NCBI GenBank assembly: GCA_902625725.1
Contig: CACOCY010000004.1
Span: forward strand, 1-64,000
Length of the DNA stretch: 64,000 bases
Direction: 5' to 3'
From: an uncultured SAR116 cluster alpha proteobacterium
Lineage (GTDB): Bacteria; Pseudomonadota; Alphaproteobacteria; Puniceispirillales; Puniceispirillaceae
This document shows positions 8,329-33,735 of this stretch, in pieces. Every line of letters starts with the position of its first letter. The first letter of the stretch is position 1. The position numbers and the translations under genes are program-made. The notes under the pieces are model-generated. The model searched no databases and was not told the origin of the DNA. It saw nothing but the letters and a program-made list of their open reading frames with translations.

Positions 8329-9180
8329 ATGACACTCCTAAAGAATTTCAAAATGAGACCATTTAGTTTTCGAAAACAATCTGTAAGAGATGAACTATCA
8401 GAGTTAATCGAAAACTCTACTAACACAAAAGATAGCTTTGATAATCATGAAAGCACCCTTCTCAGAAATATTTTAGGGCTAAAAGATCTAACAGCTGAAA
8501 GTCTAATGGTGCCAAGAGCAGACATCGTGTCTATTGATCTTACAGAGGATTTTGAGAGCGTTATGGCACATGTTTGTTCAGCAAATCACAGTAGACTTCC
8601 TGTTCACAATGGCTCTATGGATGTTATAAATGGAATGATCCATATCAAGGATCTGATGCCTCATTTGCTCGCATCTTCTAAACCAGACTTAGAAAAATTG
8701 CTCCGCCCCGTTTTATTCGTATCACCTTCTATTTGGGTAATGGATTTACTTCACGAAATGAGATTAAAAAGACGTCATTTAGCATTAATCGTTGATGAAT
8801 TTGGTGGTGTTGATGGACTTGTCACAATTGAAGATCTAGTCGAAGAGATCGTTGGCGAAATAGAAGATGAACATGATGAAATGGAAATGCCTCGTTTTGA
8901 GCTAATGGATGATGATTCAGTCATTGCAGATGCAAGACTCGAGCTTGAAGACCTTGAAAAGCTTGTTGGAATTTTAGTAGATGATAATGACCGAGAAGAG
9001 ATTGATACCGTGGCTGGCTTAGTTTTTCAGCTAGCGGGTAGGGTTCCTGTGAAGGGTGAGGTTATACGTCACTCGAGTGGCTTAGAATTTGAGGTTCTTG
9101 AAGGGGATCCTCGTCGGATTACATTGTTAAAAATTGACGGTATTAATTCAGTTAATTCGTTAAAAATTAAGCAAGAATAA
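8329..9180 (+). CDS. corC: CorC/HlyC-type CBS-domain protein
   Basis: Cytoplasmic protein with a tandem CBS pair followed by a CorC_HlyC transporter-associated domain; the family is tied to magnesium/cobalt efflux or envelope integrity. The first CBS begins near VPRADIVSID, the second covers the LHEMRLKRRHLALIVDEFGG region, and the C-terminal domain ends in VLEGDPRRITLLKI. I chose ATG 8329 rather than the in-frame ATG at 8197. GAGGAA lies at 8314-8319 before it, and the longer form would overlap ybeY by over 100 bases and add a non-conserved peptide. It lacks the DUF21 membrane domain, as usual for this locus. Confidence 0.9.
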   Translation: MTLLKNFKMRPFSFRKQSVRDELSELIENSTNTKDSFDNHESTLLRNILGLKDLTAESLMVPRADIVSIDLTEDFESVMAHVCSANHSRLPVHNGSMDVINGMIHIKDLMPHLLASSKPDLEKLLRPVLFVSPSIWVMDLLHEMRLKRRHLALIVDEFGGVDGLVTIEDLVEEIVGEIEDEHDEMEMPRFELMDDDSVIADARLELEDLEKLVGILVDDNDREEIDTVAGLVFQLAGRVPVKGEVIRHSSGLEFEVLEGDPRRITLLKIDGINSVNSLKIKQE

Positions 9181-9198
9181 TTTTAGAAATAAGATACG

Positions 9199-10773
9199 GT
9201 GAGAACGACCGAATTCAAAATTATTGAGCTATCGAATCAATTGCATCTGCAGGGAATTTTTTTGCAATTATGTGTGATGGCTCTATTGGGTATATTGGCA
9301 AGTGTCTCTTTGCCACCGCTATCGTTATTTCCAGCAATACTAGCTTTTGTTCCATTTTTAATACATTCTTTGTTTTCAAAATCTATGTGGCGCATGATAA
9401 TCTTGTTTTGGGGGTTTGCCTTTGGTTGGTTCACCGCGTCACTTTATTGGATTTCAGCATCCTTATTCGTTGATGTTTCTTGGGAGACATTAATTTTACC
9501 TTTTGCTTTATTTGCGCTTCCTGCATTTTTGGCCATGTTCTGGGGTTTGGCAGGGTTTTTTGTTTTTTTGTGCGGACGAACAATTAAATCAAGACTGTTA
9601 TACACAGCTGTCTTCATTGGTCTGGCAGAGCTACTTAGAGCATACCTTTTTACAGGATTTCCCTGGAATTCACCATCACAGCTTATATTAACACACCTTT
9701 ATTTATCTCAGATTGCGTCTGTAATAGGACAAAACGGCTCTGTTTTTTTAATATTATTATCTGTTGTAGCTTTTTGTTTTCTTTATCTGAGAATCTGGAA
9801 AATAGGACTTCTATGTATTTTACCTCTTCTTGCAAGCCTATGCTTTGGTGCATTGCGATTAGATAGTCCGTCAGTCTCAAATAAACCTAAGTTAGAACAA
9901 AATCGGCACATTTCTATTAGACTTGTCCAACCGAATGTCCCACAAAAAGAGAAATGGAATCCAGAATATAAGCAGCAGCAAATAGATGATTTATTTGAAC
10001 TATCTGCGTCAAACGATACGCCAGTATCACTAATTATTTGGCCTGAAGCAGCGTTTCCTTCAATTTGGCTAGATTTTGAGAATAAGTTTAATGAAATGAG
10101 TCAGATGAATTTTCCTAAAAACTCACATCTGCTTTCTGGAATGCTTCGATTAGATTCGAATAAAAATTTATATAATTCAGCTTTATTATTTAATGATAAA
10201 GCTGAATTAACTGGAAAAATAGATAAGCAAAAACTTGTTCCATTCGGTGAATATATTCCTTTCAGAGAAAAACTTTACCTTAAAAATTTATCGTTATTTG
10301 GAAATAAAAAAGATATCAGTATAGGTCCGAATGCTAAATTATTGACAATCAGGGATAATATAAAATTAAAAGTTTTTATTTGTTATGAAATCATTTTTTC
10401 AGAGCTTGTTTCATCACAAGAAAGGCCAGATATTATGATTAATCTCACCAATGATGCTTGGTTTGGTCAAACATTAGGGCCGTATCAGCATTTAAGCCAA
10501 GCCCGCATGAGAGCAATTGAGGAGGGTTTGCCTCTCGTTCGAGTAGCAAATACCGGAATATCTGCTGCATTTGATTATCAAGGTAATATGCTGGGTAAAA
10601 TTAATCTGTCAGAAAAAGACGTCTTGGATATACCCTTATCGATGAAACAGGAACTAACAATTTTTTCAAAATTTAGGTGGAGAATTACAATGTTAATTAC
10701 TTTTTCGCTTGTTTTATTTACAGTTTTCCTTGACGTGAGATCTCAAGCTAGGCAGAAATGCAATCAATTATAA
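9199..10773 (+). CDS. lnt: Apolipoprotein N-acyltransferase
   Basis: Inner-membrane enzyme that adds the third acyl chain to the N-terminal Cys of lipoproteins. The N-terminal half has about six hydrophobic segments (residues 20-220). The C-terminal half is a nitrilase-fold domain with its catalytic triad visible: Glu in [10 protein letters not shown], Lys in [13 protein letters not shown] and Cys in [11 protein letters not shown]. Length (524) is normal. The start is GTG with no strong Shine-Dalgarno, so the precise start is less certain; an internal ATG at codon 27 is an alternative. In many alphaproteobacteria a small XRE regulator follows lnt; here metK follows after 13 bases. Confidence 0.95.
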
Positions 10774-10786
10774 AGGAAGTGTTCTC

Positions 10787-11962
10787 ATGGCATATTTATT
10801 CACATCCGAATCAGTCTCTGAAGGTCACCCGGACAAGGTTTGTGATAGAATATCAGATACAATTCTTGATCTTTTTTTGGATCACGAACCTGAAGCTCGT
10901 GTGGCGTGCGAGACGTTAGCCACTACGAATAGGGTCGTATTAGCAGGCGAAGTCAGGGTTGATAAAAAGATTCTGCCATTAATTACAGAAAAAATAGAGC
11001 CAGCTGTTCGTTCTGCGGTGAAAGATATTGGCTATATGCAGGAAAAATTTCACTTTAATCACTTTGAATTTCAGAATTATCTTCATGAACAGTCGGTAGA
11101 TATATCCCAAGGAGTAGATAGTGGAAAGGACAAAGATGAGGGAGCGGGTGACCAAGGGTTGATGTTTGGCTATGCATGCAGAGAAACTCCATCACTAATG
11201 CCAGCGGCTATTCATTATTCTCATTTGATATTAAAAAAACTTGCTAATGTGCGCAAAGAACACCCTGGTTCAATTTTAGGACCCGATTCCAAGTCACAGG
11301 TAACTTTACGGTATAGCGATGAGGGTGAAGTAATTGGTGTTGATACAATTATATTGTCCACCCAACATAAAAAAGGAGTAACCGTTGAAGAAATACGGAA
11401 ATTAGTAACCCCTCTAATTGCTGATTTATTGCCAGTTGGTTGGATGGTTTCTAAAGAGAAACTGCTCATAAATCCAACAGGAAAATTCGAAATTGGTGGA
11501 CCAGACGGAGATGCAGGCCTTACTGGTCGAAAAATAATTGTAGATACTTACGGTGGTGCTGCCCCTCACGGAGGTGGTGCGTTTTCTGGAAAAGATCCAA
11601 CTAAAGTTGATAGATCAGCTGCCTATGCCGCAAGGTATCTTGCAAAAAATATCGTAGCTGCAGAGCTTGCAAAAAAATGTACTATACAATTAGCATATGC
11701 TATTGGTGTTTCTCAGCCTGTTTCTGTTTACGTTGACACTCATCAAACTAGCGGAGTCGAGAAAAAAAAAATTGAGAATGCTGTTAAGGAAGTAATGGAT
11801 TTGTCACCTAGAGGTATACGAACTCAATTAAAGCTAAATAATCCTATTTATGCTTGCACCTCGGCATATGGCCATTTTGGCCGCGAATTTGAGGAAATGG
11901 GTAAAAATACTTTCACGTGGGAAAATACAAATTTGGTAGACGCGTTAAAATCACTTGTCTAA
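10787..11962 (+). CDS. metK: S-adenosylmethionine synthetase
   Basis: Makes S-adenosylmethionine from methionine and ATP. The 391-residue protein has the N-terminal [20 protein letters not shown] motif, the [12 protein letters not shown] hexapeptide-type loop near residue 120, and the P-loop-like [19 protein letters not shown] near 265. A good Shine-Dalgarno (AAGGAAG) precedes the ATG. Its last eight bases overlap the start of trmB, so the methyl donor synthase and a SAM-dependent tRNA methyltransferase are translationally linked. No SAM riboswitch is apparent; the gene lies 13 bases after lnt. Confidence 0.97.
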
Positions 11963-12677
11963 AAAAAGAGATTATGAAATTTTAACACAAAACAATTTCA
12001 GAGAAGACTTTTCACCCTTTTACGGCCGAAGAAAAGGAAGACGGCTCAGTAATGCTGCAAAATGTCTATTAGAAGAAAAATTGTCGGTATATGCCATACC
12101 GGATAAGACTCATAATCCAATAGAATTTTTTTCACATAACCCAGAGAAAATATTTTTAGAAATAGGTTTTGGAGGAGGAGAACATCTAGCGACTGAAGCA
12201 AAAAACCATCCTAAAAACGGCTATATTGGTGCCGAACCATTCTTGAATGGAGTAAGTTCGCTATTAAGAATTTGCGAGGATAACCGAATTAAAAATCTTC
12301 GTATATGGCCTGAAGATATACGTCATCGAATGTCAATATGGCCCAATGATTGTTTAGATGGTGTGTTCATTATGTTCCCAGATCCTTGGCCAAAGACAAG
12401 GCACGTTGAGAGGCGCATAATCAATGAAGACAATTTAGCACAGCTAACCAGATTAATAAAAATTGGTGGACAACTTAGAATGGCAAGCGATCATCCTTGC
12501 GCAAAAAATTGGATATTGGCAGGTATTTTAGAGAACTCTAACTTTGATTGGCTTATAGAACATCCTGGCGAATGGAATACAAAACCTGAAAGTTGGCCAG
12601 AAACTAGATATATGAGAAAGGCTGTGGCGGAGGGTCGAAAACCGGCTTGGTTTAATTTTAAAAGAGTGGTTGTTTAA
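11955..12677 (+). CDS. trmB: tRNA (guanine-N7-)-methyltransferase TrmB
   Basis: Methylates G46 in the tRNA variable loop using SAM. The Rossmann motif I is [13 protein letters not shown] near residue 67, and the family signatures [11 protein letters not shown] near 140 and the final [11 protein letters not shown] are present. Length (240) is typical. It starts with TTG inside the end of metK (overlap of eight bases), which brings the start MSKKRDYE in line with family length; no ATG fits. It ends about 95 bases before the probable rimP-operon promoter. Confidence 0.93.
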
Positions 12678-12772
12678 TCTGTGTTTAAAATACTATGCTG
12701 TAACTTTTGAGCGTGTGACTGATCAAGCATTTTCAAATCACTTGTAAAATGTTCTTGAATGTGATAATACGT

Positions 12773-12818
12773 TATAATACGAGTTTTTAAAATTGGTGGG
12801 TTTTATCCCGCCTTTTTT
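12773..12818 (+). promoter_or_regulatory. rimP leader: -10 box followed by terminator-like hairpin
   Basis: A perfect TATAAT at 12773-12778 is followed, about ten bases after the expected transcription start, by an intrinsic-terminator structure: GGTGGG (12795-12800), loop TTTTAT, CCCGCC (12807-12812), then six T (12813-12818). The stem is six pairs with one G-U. It lies between the promoter and the rimP ATG at 12850. This resembles the attenuator-type rimP leader described in proteobacteria and would control the rimP-nusA-ylxR-infB operon. No good -35 was found at 17-base spacing. Confidence 0.65.
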
Positions 12819-12849
12819 ATTGGTTTTTGGTAAAAGTTTAATTTCACAA

Positions 12850-13353
12850 ATGTTAAATAAATTACTGACACAAATTATTGAGCCTGCACTAAAAGATATT
12901 GGTTACCTCTTGGTTGGTTTGAATTACTCTGCTCCCGTCAATAAAACAAAAAAAGAAACGCGGGCAAATTTGCAAATTCTGGCTGAACCTATTGATCTGT
13001 CAGATATGAACGTTGAGGATTGCGAAAAAATAAGTCGACATATTGCAACCGTCCTGGACATCGAAGATCCCATACAAAATGCTTATAATCTTGAGGTTAG
13101 CTCTCCTGGAATTGACAGACTGCTGACAAAAATTGATGATTTCAAGAGATTTAAGGGTGAGACAGTAAAGGTGCGAACGCGTTCTATGAAAGATGGACGA
13201 AAACGTTTTAGAGGAAAAATATCTAGTATTGATGAAGATGAAAACATTTTTTTTGATACTGGATTTGGAAGAGTTAGACTTAGTATCACTGAGCTTGAAT
13301 CTGCGAGGCTGGATCCAAGCGAATATTTTTCAAGTGGTTCTAGATTAAAATAA
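12850..13353 (+). CDS. rimP: Ribosome maturation factor RimP
   Basis: Assembly factor for the 30S ribosomal subunit. From ATG 12850 the protein starts MLNKLLTQIIEPALKDIGY, the usual family beginning, and contains the core CEKISRHIATVLD and NLEVSSPGIDRLL. It is 167 residues. An upstream in-frame TTG at 12793 would add 19 residues, but that codon lies in the terminator hairpin of the leader and the added hydrophobic peptide is not family-like. No strong Shine-Dalgarno is seen. It opens the rimP-nusA-ylxR-infB operon, with nusA 18 bases downstream. Confidence 0.9.
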   Translation: MLNKLLTQIIEPALKDIGYLLVGLNYSAPVNKTKKETRANLQILAEPIDLSDMNVEDCEKISRHIATVLDIEDPIQNAYNLEVSSPGIDRLLTKIDDFKRFKGETVKVRTRSMKDGRKRFRGKISSIDEDENIFFDTGFGRVRLSITELESARLDPSEYFSSGSRLK

Positions 13354-13371
13354 AAAAGAAAAGAGATTACC

Positions 13372-14934
13372 ATGGATACATCATCAGTACCAGGATTAGA
13401 GCTTATTCAAATAGCAGATACTGTCGCAAGGGAAAAATCTATTGACCGTGACGAGGTGATATCGGCAATGGAGGAGGCAATCCAAAAAGCAGGTCGTTCT
13501 AAATATGGATATGAGCACGATATTAGGGCAACGATTGATCGAAAAACAGGTAAAATTAGTCTTGAAAGATGGACAGAAGTTGTTGACGATGTTGAGGATG
13601 ATGCAACGCAGATGTCTGTCCTAGAGGGGAAGAAACATAAAATTGAATTGGGGGAATTTTTGCGCGAACCCTTACCACCAATTGAGTTTGGGAGAATTGC
13701 AGCGCAAACCGCTAAACAAGTTATTTCTCAAAAAGTTAGAGACGCGGAACGTTCAAGACAATATGCAGAATATAAAGACAGAGTTGGAGAGATTGTTGTA
13801 GGTACAATTAAGCGCGCTGAAAGCTATTCCATTACTGTGGACCTTGGAAGAGCAGAGGGTGTTATTAGACGAGAAGAAATGATTCCTCGCGAAAATTTAA
13901 GACAAGGTGACAGAATCAGAGCCTTTATTTTAGATGTGAGAGAAGAAGTGAGAGGCCCCCAGATATTTTTATCTCGTGCAGCGAATGAATTTATGGCAAA
14001 ATTATTCACACAAGAAGTTCCAGAAATTTATGATGGCATCATTGAAATTAAAGCAGTGGCAAGAGAACCGGGAAGTAGAGCCAAAATCTCTGTCTTGTCT
14101 AGAGACACAAGCATCGACCCCGTTGGCGCTTGTGTCGGCCTCCGCGGAAGCCGGGTACAGGCTGTTGTCGGGGAGTTGCAGGGCGAAAAAATCGAGATTA
14201 TTCCATTTGTAGAGGACCCAGTGGGTTTTGTTGTAAATGCATTGGCACCTGCTGAGGTTGCTAAAGTTCTTATGGACGAAGTTGCAAATAGAATGGAAGT
14301 GGTGGTGCCAGATGATCAGCTAAGTCTTGCTATTGGTAGACGTGGTCAAAATGTAAGACTCGCTTCGCAGCTTACAGGCTGGTACATTGACATTTTAACA
14401 GAAGCGGAAGAATCCGAAAAACGCCAAGAAGAAATTAAAACTCGTTCTGATCGATTCATAGAGGCATTGAATATTGATGATGTAATAGCACATCTTCTTG
14501 TTGCGGAGGGTTTTGTTATGGTTGAAGATATTGTTGTTACTGAGATTGAAGAATTATCAGAAATTCAGGGCTTTGACATTGATATTGCAACAGAGATTCA
14601 CAACCGCGCGGTTGAATTTGTCGGTGTTGAAAATGAGCGGATAGAAAGTGAGCTGGCAAGGTTGAAGGTCTCAAAAGATCTTCGTCAGTTTGAATATATC
14701 TCTCTTCCTATGATGCTTAAATTAGCTGAGAATGAGATTCTCAATCTTGACGAATTGGCAGAATTAGATAGTGAAGAGCTAATGAATTTACTTGGGGAAC
14801 TTGGCCTTGAAGACGAAGTTGAGGCCGGAAACATTATAATGGCAGCTCGAGCCCACTGGTTCGAAGATGAACTAATAGCAGAAGAAGCGTCTGAAAAAAA
14901 TTCAGGTGATGATGTAACTGATGCGGCTAATTAA
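13372..14934 (+). CDS. nusA: Transcription termination/antitermination factor NusA
   Basis: RNA-polymerase-binding factor controlling pausing, termination and antitermination. Domains in order: N-terminal polymerase-binding domain (1-130), S1 domain (about 135-200, VGEIVVGTIKRAE onward), KH1 and KH2 (about 230-350, with VGACVGLRGSRVQAV and AIGRRGQNVRLA), then two acidic helix-hairpin-helix repeats (about 360-500). The repeats make the 520-residue long form typical of proteobacteria. A Shine-Dalgarno (AAGAGA) precedes ATG. It follows rimP by 18 bases and precedes ylxR by 21. Confidence 0.97.
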   Translation: MDTSSVPGLELIQIADTVAREKSIDRDEVISAMEEAIQKAGRSKYGYEHDIRATIDRKTGKISLERWTEVVDDVEDDATQMSVLEGKKHKIELGEFLREPLPPIEFGRIAAQTAKQVISQKVRDAERSRQYAEYKDRVGEIVVGTIKRAESYSITVDLGRAEGVIRREEMIPRENLRQGDRIRAFILDVREEVRGPQIFLSRAANEFMAKLFTQEVPEIYDGIIEIKAVAREPGSRAKISVLSRDTSIDPVGACVGLRGSRVQAVVGELQGEKIEIIPFVEDPVGFVVNALAPAEVAKVLMDEVANRMEVVVPDDQLSLAIGRRGQNVRLASQLTGWYIDILTEAEESEKRQEEIKTRSDRFIEALNIDDVIAHLLVAEGFVMVEDIVVTEIEELSEIQGFDIDIATEIHNRAVEFVGVENERIESELARLKVSKDLRQFEYISLPMMLKLAENEILNLDELAELDSEELMNLLGELGLEDEVEAGNIIMAARAHWFEDELIAEEASEKNSGDDVTDAAN

Positions 14935-14955
14935 TGGATATGGACTCAACTTCAA

Positions 14956-15600
14956 ATGTCAAAACGGACCTGCATAATAACTGGTAAAAAATTGGAACCT
15001 TCTCTTTTGCTAAGGTTCGTTGTTAGTCCTGATGGTAATCTGACACCAGATATTGCCAATAAACTACCAGGTCGCGGAGCTTATATTTATCCAAAACCTG
15101 AATATGTAAGAGAGGCACTAAAAAAAAATAAATTAGCTCGGCATATAGGTTTCCAAAAAATATTATTACCGAAAGAAATAGACCTGTTTCTTCGGTTGAT
15201 TGAGGGTTTGTTGCGGAGAAAGTTTGTTGAGCACATTGGGCTTTTTAGAAGACGCGGAATTGCCATTGCTGGAGCTAATAACTTAAAAGAAAATCCTTTA
15301 TTGGTTGGTTTGCTTATAGCCAGTGATGCCTCTGATAGGGAAGCTAAAAATATTGAGTCTCTGACCCACCCTAATTGGATACTGAAAGGAATCCCTTCTG
15401 AAATATTGGGAAAGGCATTTGGACGAAAATCTCTAGCATTTGCAGGTATACTCGGTTTTAAAAGAGCAAAAAGTGAATTTAATGGATGTAGTATCAGGTA
15501 TTCTTATCAGCGCTGGAAGCCATTTATTCATGAGATCTCTTGTCAGACGGGCATCGACGGGTGTATCAACGAGCAATATAAGTTACTTAACAAGATCTAA
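14956..15600 (+). CDS. YlxR-like RNA-binding protein with C-terminal L7Ae-like part
   Basis: YlxR (DUF448) proteins are small nucleic-acid-binding proteins between nusA and infB. Residues 1-75 form the YlxR fold: RTCIITGKKLEPSLLLRFVV and the hallmark KLPGRGAYIYP. The remaining residues, up to about 170, resemble the L7Ae-like extension typical of alphaproteobacterial homologues (segment GIAIAGANNLKENPLLVGLL). The last 40 residues are not recognised. The total of 214 residues is normal for this fused form. The gene is in the rimP-infB operon, 21 bases before infB. Confidence 0.85.
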   Translation: MSKRTCIITGKKLEPSLLLRFVVSPDGNLTPDIANKLPGRGAYIYPKPEYVREALKKNKLARHIGFQKILLPKEIDLFLRLIEGLLRRKFVEHIGLFRRRGIAIAGANNLKENPLLVGLLIASDASDREAKNIESLTHPNWILKGIPSEILGKAFGRKSLAFAGILGFKRAKSEFNGCSIRYSYQRWKPFIHEISCQTGIDGCINEQYKLLNKI

Positions 15601-15621
15601 AGTGAGCAAGAAGGGCTAATA

Positions 15622-18213
15622 ATGAGTGAAGACACAAATAAAACCAAGACATTAAGTTTGTCGGGTAGCGGCAAATTGTCCCTTGGTGGTGTGGACTCCC
15701 CTCCTCGCCGAGGTGCTGAAGTAGGAGCAAGAAGAGGTAAAACGGTGCAGGTGGAGGTTCGTAGAAAAAGGGCGCCTGCAAGCCAGATGCAAAGGGCCCC
15801 ATCTGCAGTGCCGCAAGCATCACCACCTTCAACTCCGGCAGCATCAGCAGCTGAATTTAATGAAGAATCGGAAACGCAGCTACAAGACGGATTAACTGCG
15901 ACGGAACGTGCTAATCGAATAGCGGTTTTGAAACAAGGTATAAAACGATCAGAAGGGGTAATTACTGAAAAACAAATTGAAAAATCATATGAAAGTAAAA
16001 AAAATTCTCTTAACTCAGACGGTAAAAAAGTTGTTCAAAAACAATCAGAAAAAACTGAGGATTCAACATCTCTAAGACGACTTGCTGAATTAGCAGAGCT
16101 TGAAGAAATCGAAGCACAAACAAAAGTAAGGAAAGAGGAAAAGCTATCAAAAATTGAGGTTGATCAAAACAGACGACAGAATGTTAACCTATTACCTACT
16201 GATATCGCAAATGATACGCCTCACTCTAGACGAGCAAATGAGGCATCTACGGGAAGACGAAAACGTGAGGACGATGTCGAGCTACCTCGCAGGACTTCTG
16301 GGCGCAATCGAGACATCGTTTCAAGAAGGCAGGGAAAGTTGACTATATCAGAGGCTCTTTCTGGGACGGAGGGAGGTAGACAACGTTCTCTCGCATCAGT
16401 AAGGCGACAACGTGAAAAAGCTCGAATGCGCGAAGAGTCACAGCCGCAAATAAAACAAATTAGAGACGTAACAATTCCCGATTCAATTACTGTGTCTGAA
16501 TTAGCTAATAGAATGGCCGAACGTTCTGCCGACGTAGTGAAAGAACTGATGAAACAAGGTATAATGGTTACAGCTACTCAGAGTATTGATGCCGAAACAG
16601 CTGAGCTTGTAACAATAGAATTTGGTCATAAAGCACTTCGGGTCTCAGAATCAGACATTGAAATTGGCCTTCAAGGTGAGGAAGACTCTCAGGATAATTT
16701 GAAAGCAAGGCCGCCGGTAATAACTATAATGGGGCACGTTGATCACGGGAAAACGAGTTTACTAGACGCCATCCGAAAAACTGACGTTGCTGGCAGTGAA
16801 TCAGGAGGCATTACTCAGCACATAGGGTCTTACCAAATTAAAACTCAGGCGGGGAATACTATTACATTTATTGATACTCCTGGGCACGAGGCTTTCACGG
16901 AGATGCGATTGCGAGGCGCTTCCACTACTGATATGGTGGTTCTGGTTGTTGCTGCTGATGACTCGGTAAAAGAACAAACAATTGAAGCGATTGATCACGC
17001 CAAGGCAGCAGAATGCCCTATTATTGTTGCGGTGAATAAATGTGACAAGCCAGAGGCTGATCCGCAGCGTGTTCGCAGTGATTTGTTGCAGTATGAGATC
17101 ATAACAGAGGATTTTGGAGGGGAAATCCAATGTATTGATGTTTCCGCTCTTACTGGACAAGGTCTTGATAAACTTGAAGAGGCTATGATGCTTCAGGCAG
17201 AAATCTTGGAGCTTAAGGCAAATCCAGATAGGTCAGCAGAAGGCTCAGTTATTGAAGCAAAAGTAGAACGTGGGAGAGGTTCTGTTGCGACAGTTCTAGT
17301 CCAGAGAGGAACTTTAAAGGTGGGTGATATTTTTGTTGTAGGGGCTGAGCATGGAAAGGTACGCGCTCTACTTAATGATAGGGGTACAAATTTAGAAAAA
17401 GCGTATCCGGGCCAGCCTGTTGAGGTTCTGGGCTTAAATGGAACACCGATGGCGGGAGATCAATTCATAGTTGTTCCAACCGAATCCAGAGCTCGCGAGA
17501 TTGCAGATTACAGAAGCAGACAAGCTCGTGATAAAGAGGCTGTGATAAAAGCGCGTGGCTCAGTTGAACAAATGTTATCGGCAATCGCAGCTGGTGAGGC
17601 TGAAGAGTTGCCCGTGGTAATAAAGACTGATGTTCACGGTTCGCTTGAGGCTATAAAAGTAGCACTCGATAAATTAGCAACGGAGCAGGTAAAGGTTCGC
17701 ATTCTCACAGGCGGTGTTGGAGCATTATCTGAATCAGATATTTCATTAGCTGCAGCTTCGCAAGCGATCGTTGTTGGCTTTAACGTCCGAGCTATTCCTC
17801 AAGCACGAGACCTTGCTCGTCGCGATGGTGTTGAAATAAGGTACCATTCAATAATTTACGAATTAATAGAAGAAATTAAATCTGCGATGGGTGGTTTGTT
17901 AAGCCCTGAAAAACACGAAGAATTTATTGGCTACGCTGAAATAAGGGAAGTTTTCTCCGTATCCAAACTTGGAAAAGTTGCGGGATGTTATGTAACGGAA
18001 GGTATAATTCGTCGTGGTTGTAGCGTTCGTTTGCTTAGAGAAAATGTGGTTATTCATGAGGGTTCACTTAAAACACTGAAGCGCTTTAAAGATGAAGTTA
18101 AAGAAGTAAAAGATGGCTTAGAATGTGGTATGGCTTTTGAAAATTATTCAGATATTCAAAAAGGAGATATGATTGAATGTTTTGAATTGAAAGAAGTCGC
18201 TCGCACTTTATAA
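15622..18213 (+). CDS. infB: Translation initiation factor IF-2
   Basis: GTPase that places initiator fMet-tRNA on the 30S subunit. The N-terminal region starts with [15 protein letters not shown], as in alphaproteobacterial IF-2, and continues as a long charged low-complexity arm to about residue 280. The IF2_N segment ([19 protein letters not shown]) leads into the G domain, where G1 is [13 protein letters not shown] near 371, G3 is DTPGHEAF and G4 is NKCDKP. Domains II-IV follow. Length (863) is normal. AGAAGG lies before the ATG. Confidence 0.97.
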
Positions 18214-18267
18214 TTTAAATGTAATTCAGATAGCAGCGATTTTTCGAGCCGAAAATGAGCAAATATT

Positions 18268-18675
18268 ATGTCAAGAAAATCTAAAACATCAACAAAATAT
18301 CCAAGCAAACGTCAGTTACGTGTAGGAGAAGAGATAAGACACGCGTTAGCGGACATATTTTTAAAACAGGACGTTTATCTGGATGAATTGAAAGATGTCT
18401 CAATTACAGTTAGCGAGGTATCAGTCAGTCCAGACCTATCTAACGCAAAAGTATTTGTAATGACTTTAGGGGGAGAAGATATTGAAATCACTATTTCAAT
18501 ATTAAATAAGATGTCACCATTATTTGCTCATCACGTATCACAAAAAGTGTATCTTCGACGAGTACCAAAACTAAAATTTATTGTAGACGGAAGTTTTGAC
18601 CACGTTGATAAAATAACGTCTATATTTAATAATTTGCCTGTTTCAGTAAATGCTGATAAGCAAAATGGAAATTAA
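18268..18675 (+). CDS. rbfA: Ribosome-binding factor A
   Basis: Small KH-fold protein needed for late 30S assembly and 16S 5'-end processing. The protein is 135 residues with the family pattern KRQLRVGEEIRHALADIF at the start, ITVSEVSVSPDLSNAKVFV in the middle and HHVSQKVYLRRVPKLKFIVD near the end. It follows infB by 54 bases and precedes truB, the usual infB-rbfA-truB-rpsO-pnp order. A spacer of 69 bases separates it from truB. Confidence 0.94.
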   Translation: MSRKSKTSTKYPSKRQLRVGEEIRHALADIFLKQDVYLDELKDVSITVSEVSVSPDLSNAKVFVMTLGGEDIEITISILNKMSPLFAHHVSQKVYLRRVPKLKFIVDGSFDHVDKITSIFNNLPVSVNADKQNGN

Positions 18676-18744
18676 AAAAGATTCAAATAATTTCGCTGTC
18701 AGACACCCTTATTGACGTGTGAAAATCATTAGAGTAGATGAGTT

Positions 18745-19659
18745 ATGTCGCCTAAAAAGGCAATTATACACGGTTGGATAAATTTATATAAACCAGTTGG
18801 GTTAACTTCTGCTAAAGCTGTATCCATAGTTCGAAACCAATTAAATTGTGCAAAAATTGGACACGGAGGCACACTAGATCCACTTGCCAGCGGGGTTTTG
18901 CCTATCGCTATAGGTGAGGCAACTAAAACAGTTTCTTATGTCATGGATAGCGTTAAAAAATATGAATTTACTTTATGTTGGGGATATGAAACGACTACCG
19001 ATGATAAAGAGGGTTTTCCTACGCGAGTTTCAGAAAAATATCCAACAGATGTGGAAATATTAAGTTGCATACCAAAATTCGTCGGAAAAATAGAACAAAA
19101 ACCACCGTATTATTCAGCTGTTAAAATCAATGGTAAACGTGCATATAAATTAGCGAGGTGTTCGGAAAAACAGGGTTTGAAAAACCGAATAGAATTAAAA
19201 CCTCGTGAAGTAGTTATTCACAATCTATCTTTATTATCACAAAGTGAAAATGAGGCACGTTTTGCAGTTACATGCAAAAAAGGAACCTATATTCGTTCGC
19301 TAGGGCGAGATATGGGCCGACTTTTAGATTCAGCAGCTCATGTTTCAAATCTGAAAAGGGTTTCTGTAGGAAATTTTGATATTAAAAATACGATTTCACT
19401 GGATTTTTTAAAAAGTTTGAGAGATATTGCTCAGGTTAAAAAAAATGTTTTATCGTTACTTACAGTGCTAGACGACATCCCGGCACTTTTTGTAACTCCT
19501 GAGGAGGCTACCAGAATAAAAATGGGGCAACGCATTGCTTATTCTAGGGAAAGCCCCAAGGAAAATAAAATTGGTATTGCTATCTGCGGTGGTGAAGCCA
19601 TCGCTCTGATAAAGGTCGTATCTAGTATAATCCACCCTATCAGAGTTTTTAATTTATAG
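18745..19659 (+). CDS. truB: tRNA pseudouridine(55) synthase TruB
   Basis: Makes pseudouridine 55 in the T loop of tRNAs. The catalytic motif GHGGTLDPLASGVLPIAIGE is intact (residues about 40-59), with the Asp of TLDP as nucleophile; KTYIRSLGRDMG-type sequence (KKGTYIRSLGRDMG near 190) is the second family signature. A short C-terminal PUA-like part follows. Length (304) is typical. It is 24 bases upstream of rpsO, whose strong Shine-Dalgarno follows the truB stop directly. Confidence 0.95.
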   Translation: MSPKKAIIHGWINLYKPVGLTSAKAVSIVRNQLNCAKIGHGGTLDPLASGVLPIAIGEATKTVSYVMDSVKKYEFTLCWGYETTTDDKEGFPTRVSEKYPTDVEILSCIPKFVGKIEQKPPYYSAVKINGKRAYKLARCSEKQGLKNRIELKPREVVIHNLSLLSQSENEARFAVTCKKGTYIRSLGRDMGRLLDSAAHVSNLKRVSVGNFDIKNTISLDFLKSLRDIAQVKKNVLSLLTVLDDIPALFVTPEEATRIKMGQRIAYSRESPKENKIGIAICGGEAIALIKVVSSIIHPIRVFNL

Positions 19660-19683
19660 CCGTTACAGGTAAGGAGGTATTTG

Positions 19684-19953
19684 ATGTCGATTACAAAAGA
19701 AAAAACAGCTGAGTTGGTTAATAAATTTGGTTTAAATGAAAATGACTCTGGGTCTGCAGCGGTACAAGTTGCTATATTAAGTGAGCGAATTTCAAATCTT
19801 ACTGAACATCTAAAAATTCATAAGAAAGATTTTGGATCTCGTCGTGGTTTGTTGATGATGGTTGGACAAAGGCGTCATTTGCTCGATTACATTAAATCTC
19901 GTAAGGAAAGTGATTATAAAGAATTAATATCTAAGTTAGGTTTGCGTAGATAA
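19684..19953 (+). CDS. rpsO: 30S ribosomal protein S15
   Basis: Primary binder of 16S rRNA helix 22 in the 30S platform. The 89-residue protein starts [16 protein letters not shown] and carries the rRNA-contact region [20 protein letters not shown]. The ATG at 19684 is chosen over the TTG directly before it because GGAGG at 19673-19677 has optimal spacing to it. It sits between truB and pnp, as in most proteobacteria, and is followed by a terminator-like hairpin. Confidence 0.97.
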
Positions 19954-19991
19954 ACTTGATCAACATTATTAACTTTTAAATAACACAATCT

Positions 19992-20020
19992 AGCCACCTT
20001 AATCTTTAGTGGACTTTTTT
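19992..20020 (+). terminator. Weak terminator-like hairpin after rpsO
   Basis: CCAC (19994-19997) can pair with GTGG (20009-20012) across an 11-base loop, and six T follow at 20015-20020. The short stem suggests partial termination, allowing some readthrough from rpsO to pnp. It opens the 328-base rpsO-pnp spacer. Confidence 0.45.
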
Positions 20021-20109
20021 GTTGTTGCAATTCAACAATACTCATGTCATATACCCATCATGAAAAAATAATATCATCATTTGCCGCAAAATTATGGAGA
20101 GAGGCGGAC

Positions 20110-20157
20110 GCTTGACCGAGCAAGCAATTTGAACAACCAGACGGAGATTGTTGTTCA
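20110..20157 (+). ncRNA. Paired hairpins in the rpsO-pnp spacer (candidate pnp leader)
   Basis: Two adjacent stems lie in the 328-base spacer (19954-20281). Stem 1 is GCTTG/CAAGC (20110-20114 with 20121-20125). Stem 2 is TGAACAAC/GTTGTTCA (20130-20137 with 20150-20157), eight perfect pairs with a 12-base loop. Neither is followed by a T run, so they are not terminators. In E. coli a double-stranded structure in the pnp leader is cut by RNase III and then mediates PNPase autoregulation; these stems are in the equivalent place. The rest of the spacer holds no gene that I can see. The pnp Shine-Dalgarno (ACGGAG) lies at its end. Confidence 0.45.
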
Positions 20158-20281
20158 GTTTGATCCCTACTATGAGATTTTAGAATGTTAATTCGAACCC
20201 ATTGTTGCTTCGTTCAAGAAATTATGTACCTCAGTCAGCTATTTGTAAAATGGCTAAAGTAACGAACGAACGGAGTTATTA

Positions 20282-22405
20282 ATGTTCACAATTTACAAAA
20301 AAGAATTTCAGTGGGGAGATAGGACCGTTGTTTTGGAAACGGGAAAAATAGCTAGACAAGCAGATGGCGCGGTTCTAATTTCCATAGGTCAAACCACAGT
20401 TTTATGCACAGCTGTTGCCGCAAAATCTGCAAAGCCTGGACAAGACTTTTTTCCATTAACTGTAAATTATCAAGAAAAAGCGTTTGCTGCAGGCAAAATC
20501 CCTGGTGGCTTTTTCAAACGAGAAGGACGGCCATCTGAAAATGAAACGCTTGTAAGCAGATTAATTGATAGGCCTATAAGACCACTTTTTCCCAGCGAAT
20601 TTAAATGTGAAACACAAGTTATATGTACTGTATTATCACATGATATGGAAAATAATCCTGATATAGTTGCAATGTTAGGTGCTTCTGCTGCTTTGACAAT
20701 ATCTGGTGTTCCATTTTATGGCCCAATCGGAGCAGCTAGAGTGGGGCTTATAGACGATAATTTTGTTTTAAATCCAACAATTACTCAGATGGAAAATTCC
20801 ACGTTGGATTTAGTCATGGCCGGCACTTCAGAGGGCGTATTAATGGTTGAATCTGAAGCTAACGAATTATCAGAAAAAACAATGTTAGAGGCTGTAAACT
20901 TTGGTCACAAGGAAATACAAACAGCAATTAGAGCTATTATTGAACTTGCGGAATCAGCCGCGAAGGAGCCGCGTGAACTTCCGCAGGAGCCAACAGAAAC
21001 TGAGACTGTTAGAAGTTCGTTATCATCTCTAAGAACTGAAGTTGAAAAAGCTTATGCTATTTCTGACAAAACTAACAGACAAAGCTCACTTGCTGCTATT
21101 AGAGAAAAAGCTCTTGAAATTGCAGATACAGACATAGATAGCATTTTAATTGGTGGTATTATGAAAGACCTGGAATCTGACGTAGTGCGTTCTGCTATAT
21201 TAAACACTGGCATACGCATCGATGGTCGAGATACAAAAACAGTGCGCCCGATTGTAGCTGAGGTTGGTTTGTTGCCAAGAACACACGGTTCGGCTTTATT
21301 TACACGAGGAGAGACACAGGCGCTTGCCGTTACTACACTTGGAACAGGTCAGGACGAACAAATTATTGATTCCTTAGAAGGGGAGTCACGTTCAAGATTT
21401 ATGCTTCATTATAACTTTCCACCTTATTCTGTTGGAGAAGCGGGCCGAGTTGGCAGCCCGGGAAGACGTGAAATAGGACATGGAAAATTAGCTTGGAGAG
21501 CCATTAACCCTGTTCTCCCAGAAAAAGAGGAATTTCCTTATACACTTCGAACAGTTTCAGAGGTGACAGAATCAAACGGTTCATCCTCTATGGCGACAGT
21601 ATGTGGAACATCACTTGCATTGATGGATGCAGGAGTTCCACTGAGACGTCCTGTTGCTGGTATAGCAATGGGACTAATAAAAGAGGGAGACTCTTTTGCT
21701 GTTCTGTCAGATATTCTTGGTGATGAAGATCATTTAGGTGATATGGACTTTAAAGTTGCTGGTACAAAAGACGGTATTACTTCACTACAGATGGATATAA
21801 AAATAACATCAATAACTTCCAAGATTATGAAGATTGCATTGGATCAAGCTAAAGAGGGTAGATTGCATATTCTAGGGGAGATGAGTAAGGCGCTTAATTC
21901 TGCAAGAGAAACTTTGTCAGATAGTGCCCCGAAAATCACGACCTTAAAAATTCCGGTTGATAAAATCAGAGATATTATTGGTCCGGGCGGTAAGGTTATT
22001 AGAGAAATATGTGAGCAAACGGGAGCAAAAATTGATATTGAAGATAACGGGACAGTATCCATAGCAGCGTCATCGCAAGTATCTTCTGAGGCAGCAATTA
22101 GTCGCGTTAAGGATATTGTTGCGGAGCCGGAACTTGGTGAAATTTATACCGGGTCTGTGGTAAAAACTGTTGACTTTGGTGCATTTGTAAATTTTCTTGG
22201 TCCTAAAGATGGTCTTGTGCACATTTCTGAAATGCGTGAAGAAAGAGTCGCCAAAACAACTGACGTATGCAAAGAGGGCGACAGCGTTAAAGTAAAAGTT
22301 ATTGGATTTGATGATAGAGGAAAAGTAAAATTGTCAATGAAAAGAGTTGATCAGGAAACTGGCGTTGATCTTGAAGTTACTTCAGATGGTTCAGAAGTTA
22401 ATTAA
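20282..22405 (+). CDS. pnp: Polyribonucleotide nucleotidyltransferase (PNPase)
   Basis: Phosphorolytic 3'-5' exoribonuclease and degradosome component. Domains in order: first RNase PH domain (about 10-215), helical linker, second RNase PH domain (about 310-540, with the active-site region [13 protein letters not shown] and [18 protein letters not shown]), KH domain (about 555-610, [12 protein letters not shown]), and S1 domain (about 622-690, [17 protein letters not shown]). The 707-residue length is normal. The Shine-Dalgarno ACGGAG precedes ATG. The long leader with hairpins suggests post-transcriptional control. The gene ends facing fabI. Confidence 0.97.
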
Positions 22406-33711: not shown

Positions 33712-33735
33712 GGGGTCACAGACCCCTTTTTTTTT
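33712..33735 (+). terminator. Strong Rho-independent terminator after rpsT
   Basis: GGGGTC (33712-33717), loop ACA, GACCCC (33721-33726), followed by nine T. This is the clearest intrinsic terminator in the window and isolates rpsT from dnaA. Confidence 0.92.

Follow-up and report, generated by a model that had tools for sequence, protein, structure and literature searches.

The rimP-nusA-infB genes of an uncultured SAR116 cluster alphaproteobacterium are preceded by a short intrinsic terminator lying just downstream of a conserved promoter, and we interpret this arrangement as a transcription attenuator of the type known as rimP-leader, for which the level of NusA is the most likely signal (we give this explanation as a whole a probability of about 0.78). 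The window analysed here is the entire stretch of 64,000 nucleotides, and the features relevant to the argument are collected in Table 1. The rimP-leader was described by Naville and Gautheret in 2010, with NusA named as the likeliest regulator (PMC2965389); the idea of a NusA-regulated attenuator is hence already published. By its anatomy, the element in the window is a rimP-leader and adds an alphaproteobacterial case to a known and widespread brake on rimP-nusA-infB.

Table 1. Genes and signals around the start of the rimP operon in the window.
Feature	Positions	Strand	Basis or remark
trmB	11955..12677	+	TIGR00091, E 5.6e-29, below the model cut-off; gene upstream of rimP, same strand
Conserved rimP promoter, -35 TTGTAA	12742..12747	+	TTG here in 9/9 same-genus loci
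Extended -10, TGA-TAATAC	12762..12770	+	position kept in genus and family
TATAAT of the earlier note	12773..12778	+	at this place in 2/9 genus loci (L001, L008), by eye
Terminator hairpin GGTGGGTTTTATCCCGCC, 6 bp, loop TTTTAT (GGTGGG-TTTTAT-CCCGCC)	12795..12812	+	fold, scan, covariation in 49 aligned loci
T6 tract of the terminator	12813..12818	+	T run kept in alignment A1
rimP, 167 aa, ATG start	12850..13353	+	RimP_N above Pfam cut-off
nusA	13372..14934	+	TIGR01953, 399 bits, above cut-off
infB (IF-2)	15622..18213	+	TIGR00487, 799 bits, above cut-off

The gene series reads trmB, rimP, nusA, a frame between nusA and infB which we take to be ylxR, infB and rbfA, so that RimP, NusA and IF-2 were identified in that order 3' of the hairpin, the gene context of the rimP-leader. 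Against the RimP models of NCBIfam, the best E-value of the rimP product was 1.3e-41, with every model under its own cut-off. An earlier note on this DNA had rejected a longer rimP frame that runs over the hairpin, and this judgement is borne out: the foot of the hairpin overlaps the TTG at 12793 with which that frame starts, and in a relative from the same genus (L002) the RimP ATG stands at the position matching 12850. Several irregular rimP loci were encountered among the relatives. The rimP of L011 (genome G016) contains one in-frame TGA within the RimP match, and two adjoining RimP_N matches, the second under the cut-off in each case, were found at G104:C7:321-1034 and at G139:C3:124793-125543.

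The signal described in the earlier note, a TATAAT followed by a G/C-rich hairpin and six T, all 5' of the rimP ATG, is present in the sequence as stated. The segment 12785-12819 folds with -13.6 kcal/mol, compared to a mean of -3.75 (sd 2.15) for shuffled sequences, none of 200 of which folded as well. Hairpins of a strict grade (six or more pairs, five or more being G-C, a loop of 3-9 nt and T6 immediately or one base 3' of the stem) occur only twice on both strands of the whole window. The sole other hairpin of this grade, at 33712 on the + strand, consists of GGGGTCACAGACCCC followed by eight T. A looser terminator scan of positions 9000-22000 yielded 7 sites versus 8.5 (sd 2.8) in shuffles and therefore proves nothing alone; the proof comes from conservation.

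RimP was located in 56 of the 61 genomes of the genus, family and order, and RimP matches were obtained in 101 of 114 genomes of the class and 107 of 120 genomes of the phylum. From these, 184 upstream regions were assembled, comprising 9 loci from the genus, 25 from the family, 22 from the order, 106 from the class and 22 from elsewhere in the phylum. The class set derives from the 101 genomes with RimP matches minus G132 (a fragment), with G000 and G018 already included, and its 106 loci contain 8 of the 30 loci used from the phylum search as well as some near relatives, so that not all are independent. A scored hairpin with a T tract was found upstream of rimP in all nine genus loci (0.0 expected from five dinucleotide shuffles per sequence), in 24/25 family loci (0.8 expected), 16/22 order loci (0.4), 73/106 class loci (1.4) and 19/22 loci from the rest of the phylum (0.4). 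The single miss in the family, L028, is a run of N, and the six in the order (L104-L108 and L110), all from one genus, carry by eye a GATGGG..GCCCAT hairpin, which is longer and bulged in five of them. An intrinsic terminator thus precedes rimP in 55 of the 56 loci of the order, six of these being recognized by eye and the remaining locus being the run of N. In the class, 33 of the 106 loci lack a terminator at the threshold, a few of them ending at contig ends; 11 of the 33 fit a looser GGG..CCC..TTTT pattern, and none could be demonstrated in the others. The scored scan supersedes a first count of a fixed-GGG motif (9/9, 19/25, 5/22, 66/106 and 12/22 in the same sets), which was dropped because it misses covarying stems and picked the wrong site in L002.

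The stem is maintained by compensatory change. In alignment A1, which comprises 49 leaders (48 distinct sequences) over a seven-pair stem, 97.3% of the cells are paired, and sliding the partner by one to three columns reduces pairing to 32-56%. Double-sided changes occur at five of the seven pairs, in 28 cells versus 9.0 in shuffles, with none of 500 shuffles reaching as high a value. For instance, one G-C pair of the GGG:CCC core is exchanged for A-U in 11 sequences, converting GGG:CCC to GAG:CTC, which indicates that the reported core is replaceable. The C-G pair adjoining the loop, found in 33 of the 48 distinct rows, is missing from the window, where T and T stand instead. Comparison of sequences thus establishes both the predicted terminator and its covarying stem.

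A covariance model built from A1 recovered the rimP leader in 49 of the 61 genomes, a circular count since the same 49 loci built the model. In the genome of the window, the model had one match at E up to 0.1, namely 12769-12824 with 42.1 bits. The best match away from a located rimP in the 61 genomes reached 34.2 bits (G021), a value exceeded by 47 of the 49 leader matches; the scan scored 92 of the first-look candidates in each genome, which for the genome of the window means 92 of 1037, and other matches may have been missed. As a more independent test, the model was applied to 100 class loci out of 106 (L184-L189 were omitted). It gave 24 matches at E <0.01, all of them in sense orientation and upstream of the RimP match, 23 at no more than 300 nt and one at 329 nt. 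A scan of the named genomes for RimP relatives led to one distant locus, which did not help the comparison. The ATTG that follows the T tract was considered as a specific mark and discarded, as other terminators in these genomes end in TTTTTTATTG or TTTTTTATTT (L193, L192).

The promoter is conserved in its placement. In the window, 17 nt separate TTGTAA from TAATAC at 12765, and the end of the extended -10 is followed by the hairpin after 24 nt; an alternative reading of the -10 is TGT-GATAAT at 12760-12768 with a 15-nt spacer. This promoter is weak, matching the consensus at 7 of 12 bases plus the TG extension, which is exactly the threshold score of the scan; in the genus, scoring covered eight of the nine loci, with L002 (-10 TTTAAT) unscored. 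Within the order, a TTG-16/18-TA promoter with a score of at least 8 stands before the hairpin in 46 of 49 loci versus 7.6 expected from mononucleotide shuffles, and its -10 ends 20-49 nt before the hairpin in 34 loci versus 2.9 expected. The corresponding figures for the class, again against mononucleotide shuffles, are 62 of 73 loci versus 6.1 and 42 loci versus 2.5, with a wider spread of distances than in the order. Among the best promoter matches listed, 34 of 36 have the end of the -10 at 23-33 nt before the hairpin, the exceptions being L015 and L020; this count leaves out the family of L109-L118 and L119-L121, as well as L002, which had no promoter match. A promoter close upstream of the terminator is thereby demonstrated as a predicted element of these leaders, and transcription is predicted to start near 12775-12778.

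The earlier note was thus right in placing a promoter 5' of the hairpin, at 12742-12770 by our analysis, but its TATAAT at 12773 is an unlikely main -10. Counted by hand, no -35 with more than two of six consensus bases lies at a spacing of 16-18 nt from this TATAAT, which by eye stands at this place in just one other of the nine genus loci, L008; the window contains 44 copies of TATAAT on the + strand and 52 on the - strand. It is therefore probably not the main -10. It lies 8 nt downstream of TAATAC, and with either choice the predicted start falls before the hairpin. By count of consensus bases, the top promoter-like site in 9000-22000 is TTGAAA-16-TATAAT (11/12) at 18187-18214, located at the end of infB and directly 5' of rbfA.

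The hairpin might also be read as the plain 3' terminator of trmB, with rimP transcribed from a promoter of its own farther downstream. Such a reading accords with the presence of TrmB upstream in all 56 order loci, on the same strand in the 49 for which the strand is shown, and with the terminator scan of the window, which listed no second terminator between the end of trmB and 12795 and no further one before rimP. We nevertheless consider it very unlikely: the promoter precedes the hairpin rather than following it, the T tract ends just 31 nt before the rimP ATG, and 30 class loci that lack a TrmB hit keep the terminator at rimP. Twelve of these 30 loci were inspected, and eight opposite-strand frames were compared with Pfam, seven of which had a domain (Tim44, LysE, MFS, HrcA, photolyase, glycosyltransferase 61 and ArsP permease); the eighth, in L179, had no Pfam domain. 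In at least seven loci, then, the upstream gene is Pfam-supported and lies on the opposite strand, leaving no adjoining same-strand gene to terminate, so that the signal belongs to the rimP transcript. Judged from these sequence comparisons, the predicted hairpin is demonstrably part of the rimP transcript, not of that of trmB, and independent of the upstream gene.

The central claim of the earlier note, that rimP-nusA-infB can be expressed only by readthrough of a promoter-proximal terminator, is strongly supported by the conservation of both promoter and terminator. From the arrangement in the window, we infer the actual start and stop sites, the degree of readthrough and NusA as the sensor. 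RNA synthesis would begin near 12777, and after about 18 nt of RNA the hairpin and the U tract would form. A part of the transcripts would stop at the U tract, yielding an RNA of about 42 nt, and the remaining ones would pass the terminator into rimP, nusA and infB; the hairpin would also halt readthrough coming from trmB. As NusA stimulates intrinsic termination, a rise in NusA would increase termination and lower the supply of NusA and IF-2. By analogy, NusA feedback, as suggested in the earlier note, would be the most likely signal at the operon of the window.

The terminator was retained in the best structures of 12777-12870 and 12777-12900, folded as finished RNA rather than as a growing chain, and no competing structure appeared. 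Given a predicted leader of about 18 nt without an antiterminator, we favour a brake that is either protein-sensed or fixed over an RNA switch, as did Naville and Gautheret in 2010 for the rimP-leader (PMC2965389). The form that such a switch could take is a small hairpin directly 5' of the terminator that competes with its stem: CTGTC..GACGG in much of the family and GCGTC..GATGT in part of the genus. Small hairpins of this kind were seen in L010, L011, L016, L018, L024, L025, L029, L100, L101, L103 and other family loci. Although a small hairpin scoring at least 10 is present in 31 of 49 leaders versus 7.1 expected (mononucleotide shuffles), with its 3' arm often reaching 1-3 bases into the 5' end of the terminator stem, this overlap is too short for blocking the terminator, and the small hairpin stays at chance level in the genus loci L007 and L008 as well as in the window (score 8.8, p 0.36). 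It was set aside as an antiterminator on the grounds of its chance level in the window and the short overlap, and control by an RNA switch appears highly improbable. Even less probable, in our estimate, is that the short terminated RNA serves as a functional small RNA. The rimP leader is named among attenuator-derived, ProQ-associated sRNAs (PMC5391140), but the sequence 5' of the hairpin varies among relatives, leaving little for base pairing.

Nine loci of one family within the order (L109 and L111-L118) have a -10 that ends 6-9 nt before the hairpin, and the rimP RNA should accordingly begin with the terminator itself; the small 5' hairpin is zero or weak in most of them. This proximity, together with the lack of an antiterminator in the leader folds, would suit a fixed brake that imposes constant low readthrough of rimP-nusA-infB with no regulator. 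We regard this alternative as possible yet unlikely, given that NusA control of the operon has been reported in E. coli and B. subtilis. In E. coli, terminators t1 and t2 lie upstream of rimP in metY-rimP-nusA-infB, and mutants in which NusA termination is reduced contain more transcript of the operon (PMC6511841). For B. subtilis, a 2025 review states that NusA controls its own expression by stimulating termination in its 5' leader (PMC12288461).

The element in the window resembles both of these systems in having a terminator 5' of the operon, in B. subtilis likewise in a leader where it controls readthrough (PMC12288461), in E. coli upstream of rimP (PMC6511841). However, the E. coli leader, as presented in that source, includes a tRNA gene, several promoters and RNase III sites, compared to one predicted promoter and no tRNA gene anywhere in the window; the B. 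subtilis leader, for which the NusA effect is reported, measures 180 nt, while the stop site in the window is predicted after 42 nt. Closer still is the rimP-leader, which, as in the window, is located 5' of rimP-nusA-infB, has a short G-rich/C-rich terminator with a GGG..CCC core and a T tract and showed no larger leader structure or antiterminator (PMC2965389). The distance of 31 nt to the gene falls within the reported range of 4-130 (PMC2965389), and the core is present with GGG at 12798-12800 and CCC at 12807-12809. The window reads GGGT..TCCC in place of GGGc..gCCC (PMC2965389); it thus lacks the lower-case c(...)g beside the core, which we take as not strictly defining. Further differences are GAG:CTC for GGG:CCC in some relatives from the order and, in the gammaproteobacterial rimP-leader, a second terminator upstream, compared to the single one that the scan of the window lists between trmB and rimP.

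A comparison with the Rfam rimP leader, suggested in the earlier note, returned no match to RF01770 in the window. At the gathering score, no Rfam family, RF01770 (rimP) included, matched the window, and at E up to 10 the segment 12500-13000 produced six sub-threshold matches, none of them to RF01770; one of these, L20_leader at 0.14, takes in the terminator hairpin. Across 21 genomes, RF01770 gave matches at E up to 10 in 20 and above the cut-off in none, and no listed place was at a located rimP. The leader of the window is therefore not a scored member of RF01770, a model of 102 positions whose gene context is alike by name. Among the papers listed in our literature searches, and leaving aside the 2010 supplementary lists, which include other species, none dealt with the leader of rimP in alphaproteobacteria.

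Most of what is known about how the level of NusA, a central transcription factor, is set comes from E. coli and B. subtilis. The order studied here, with its very short and conserved unit of promoter and terminator, offers a simple test case for such control. The exchanges of GGG:CCC for GAG:CTC speak against recognition of the GGG motif itself by a protein, which has a bearing on the specific motif recognition proposed in 2010 (PMC2965389). We tentatively suggest that these alphaproteobacteria may possess a minimal nusA-operon attenuator, consisting of a promoter and a terminator that can start almost at +1, in which, as the core sequence is free to covary, the position and stability of the hairpin rather than a bound motif would regulate. 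If true, NusA or another factor would need to act on a polymerase that is barely past the promoter.
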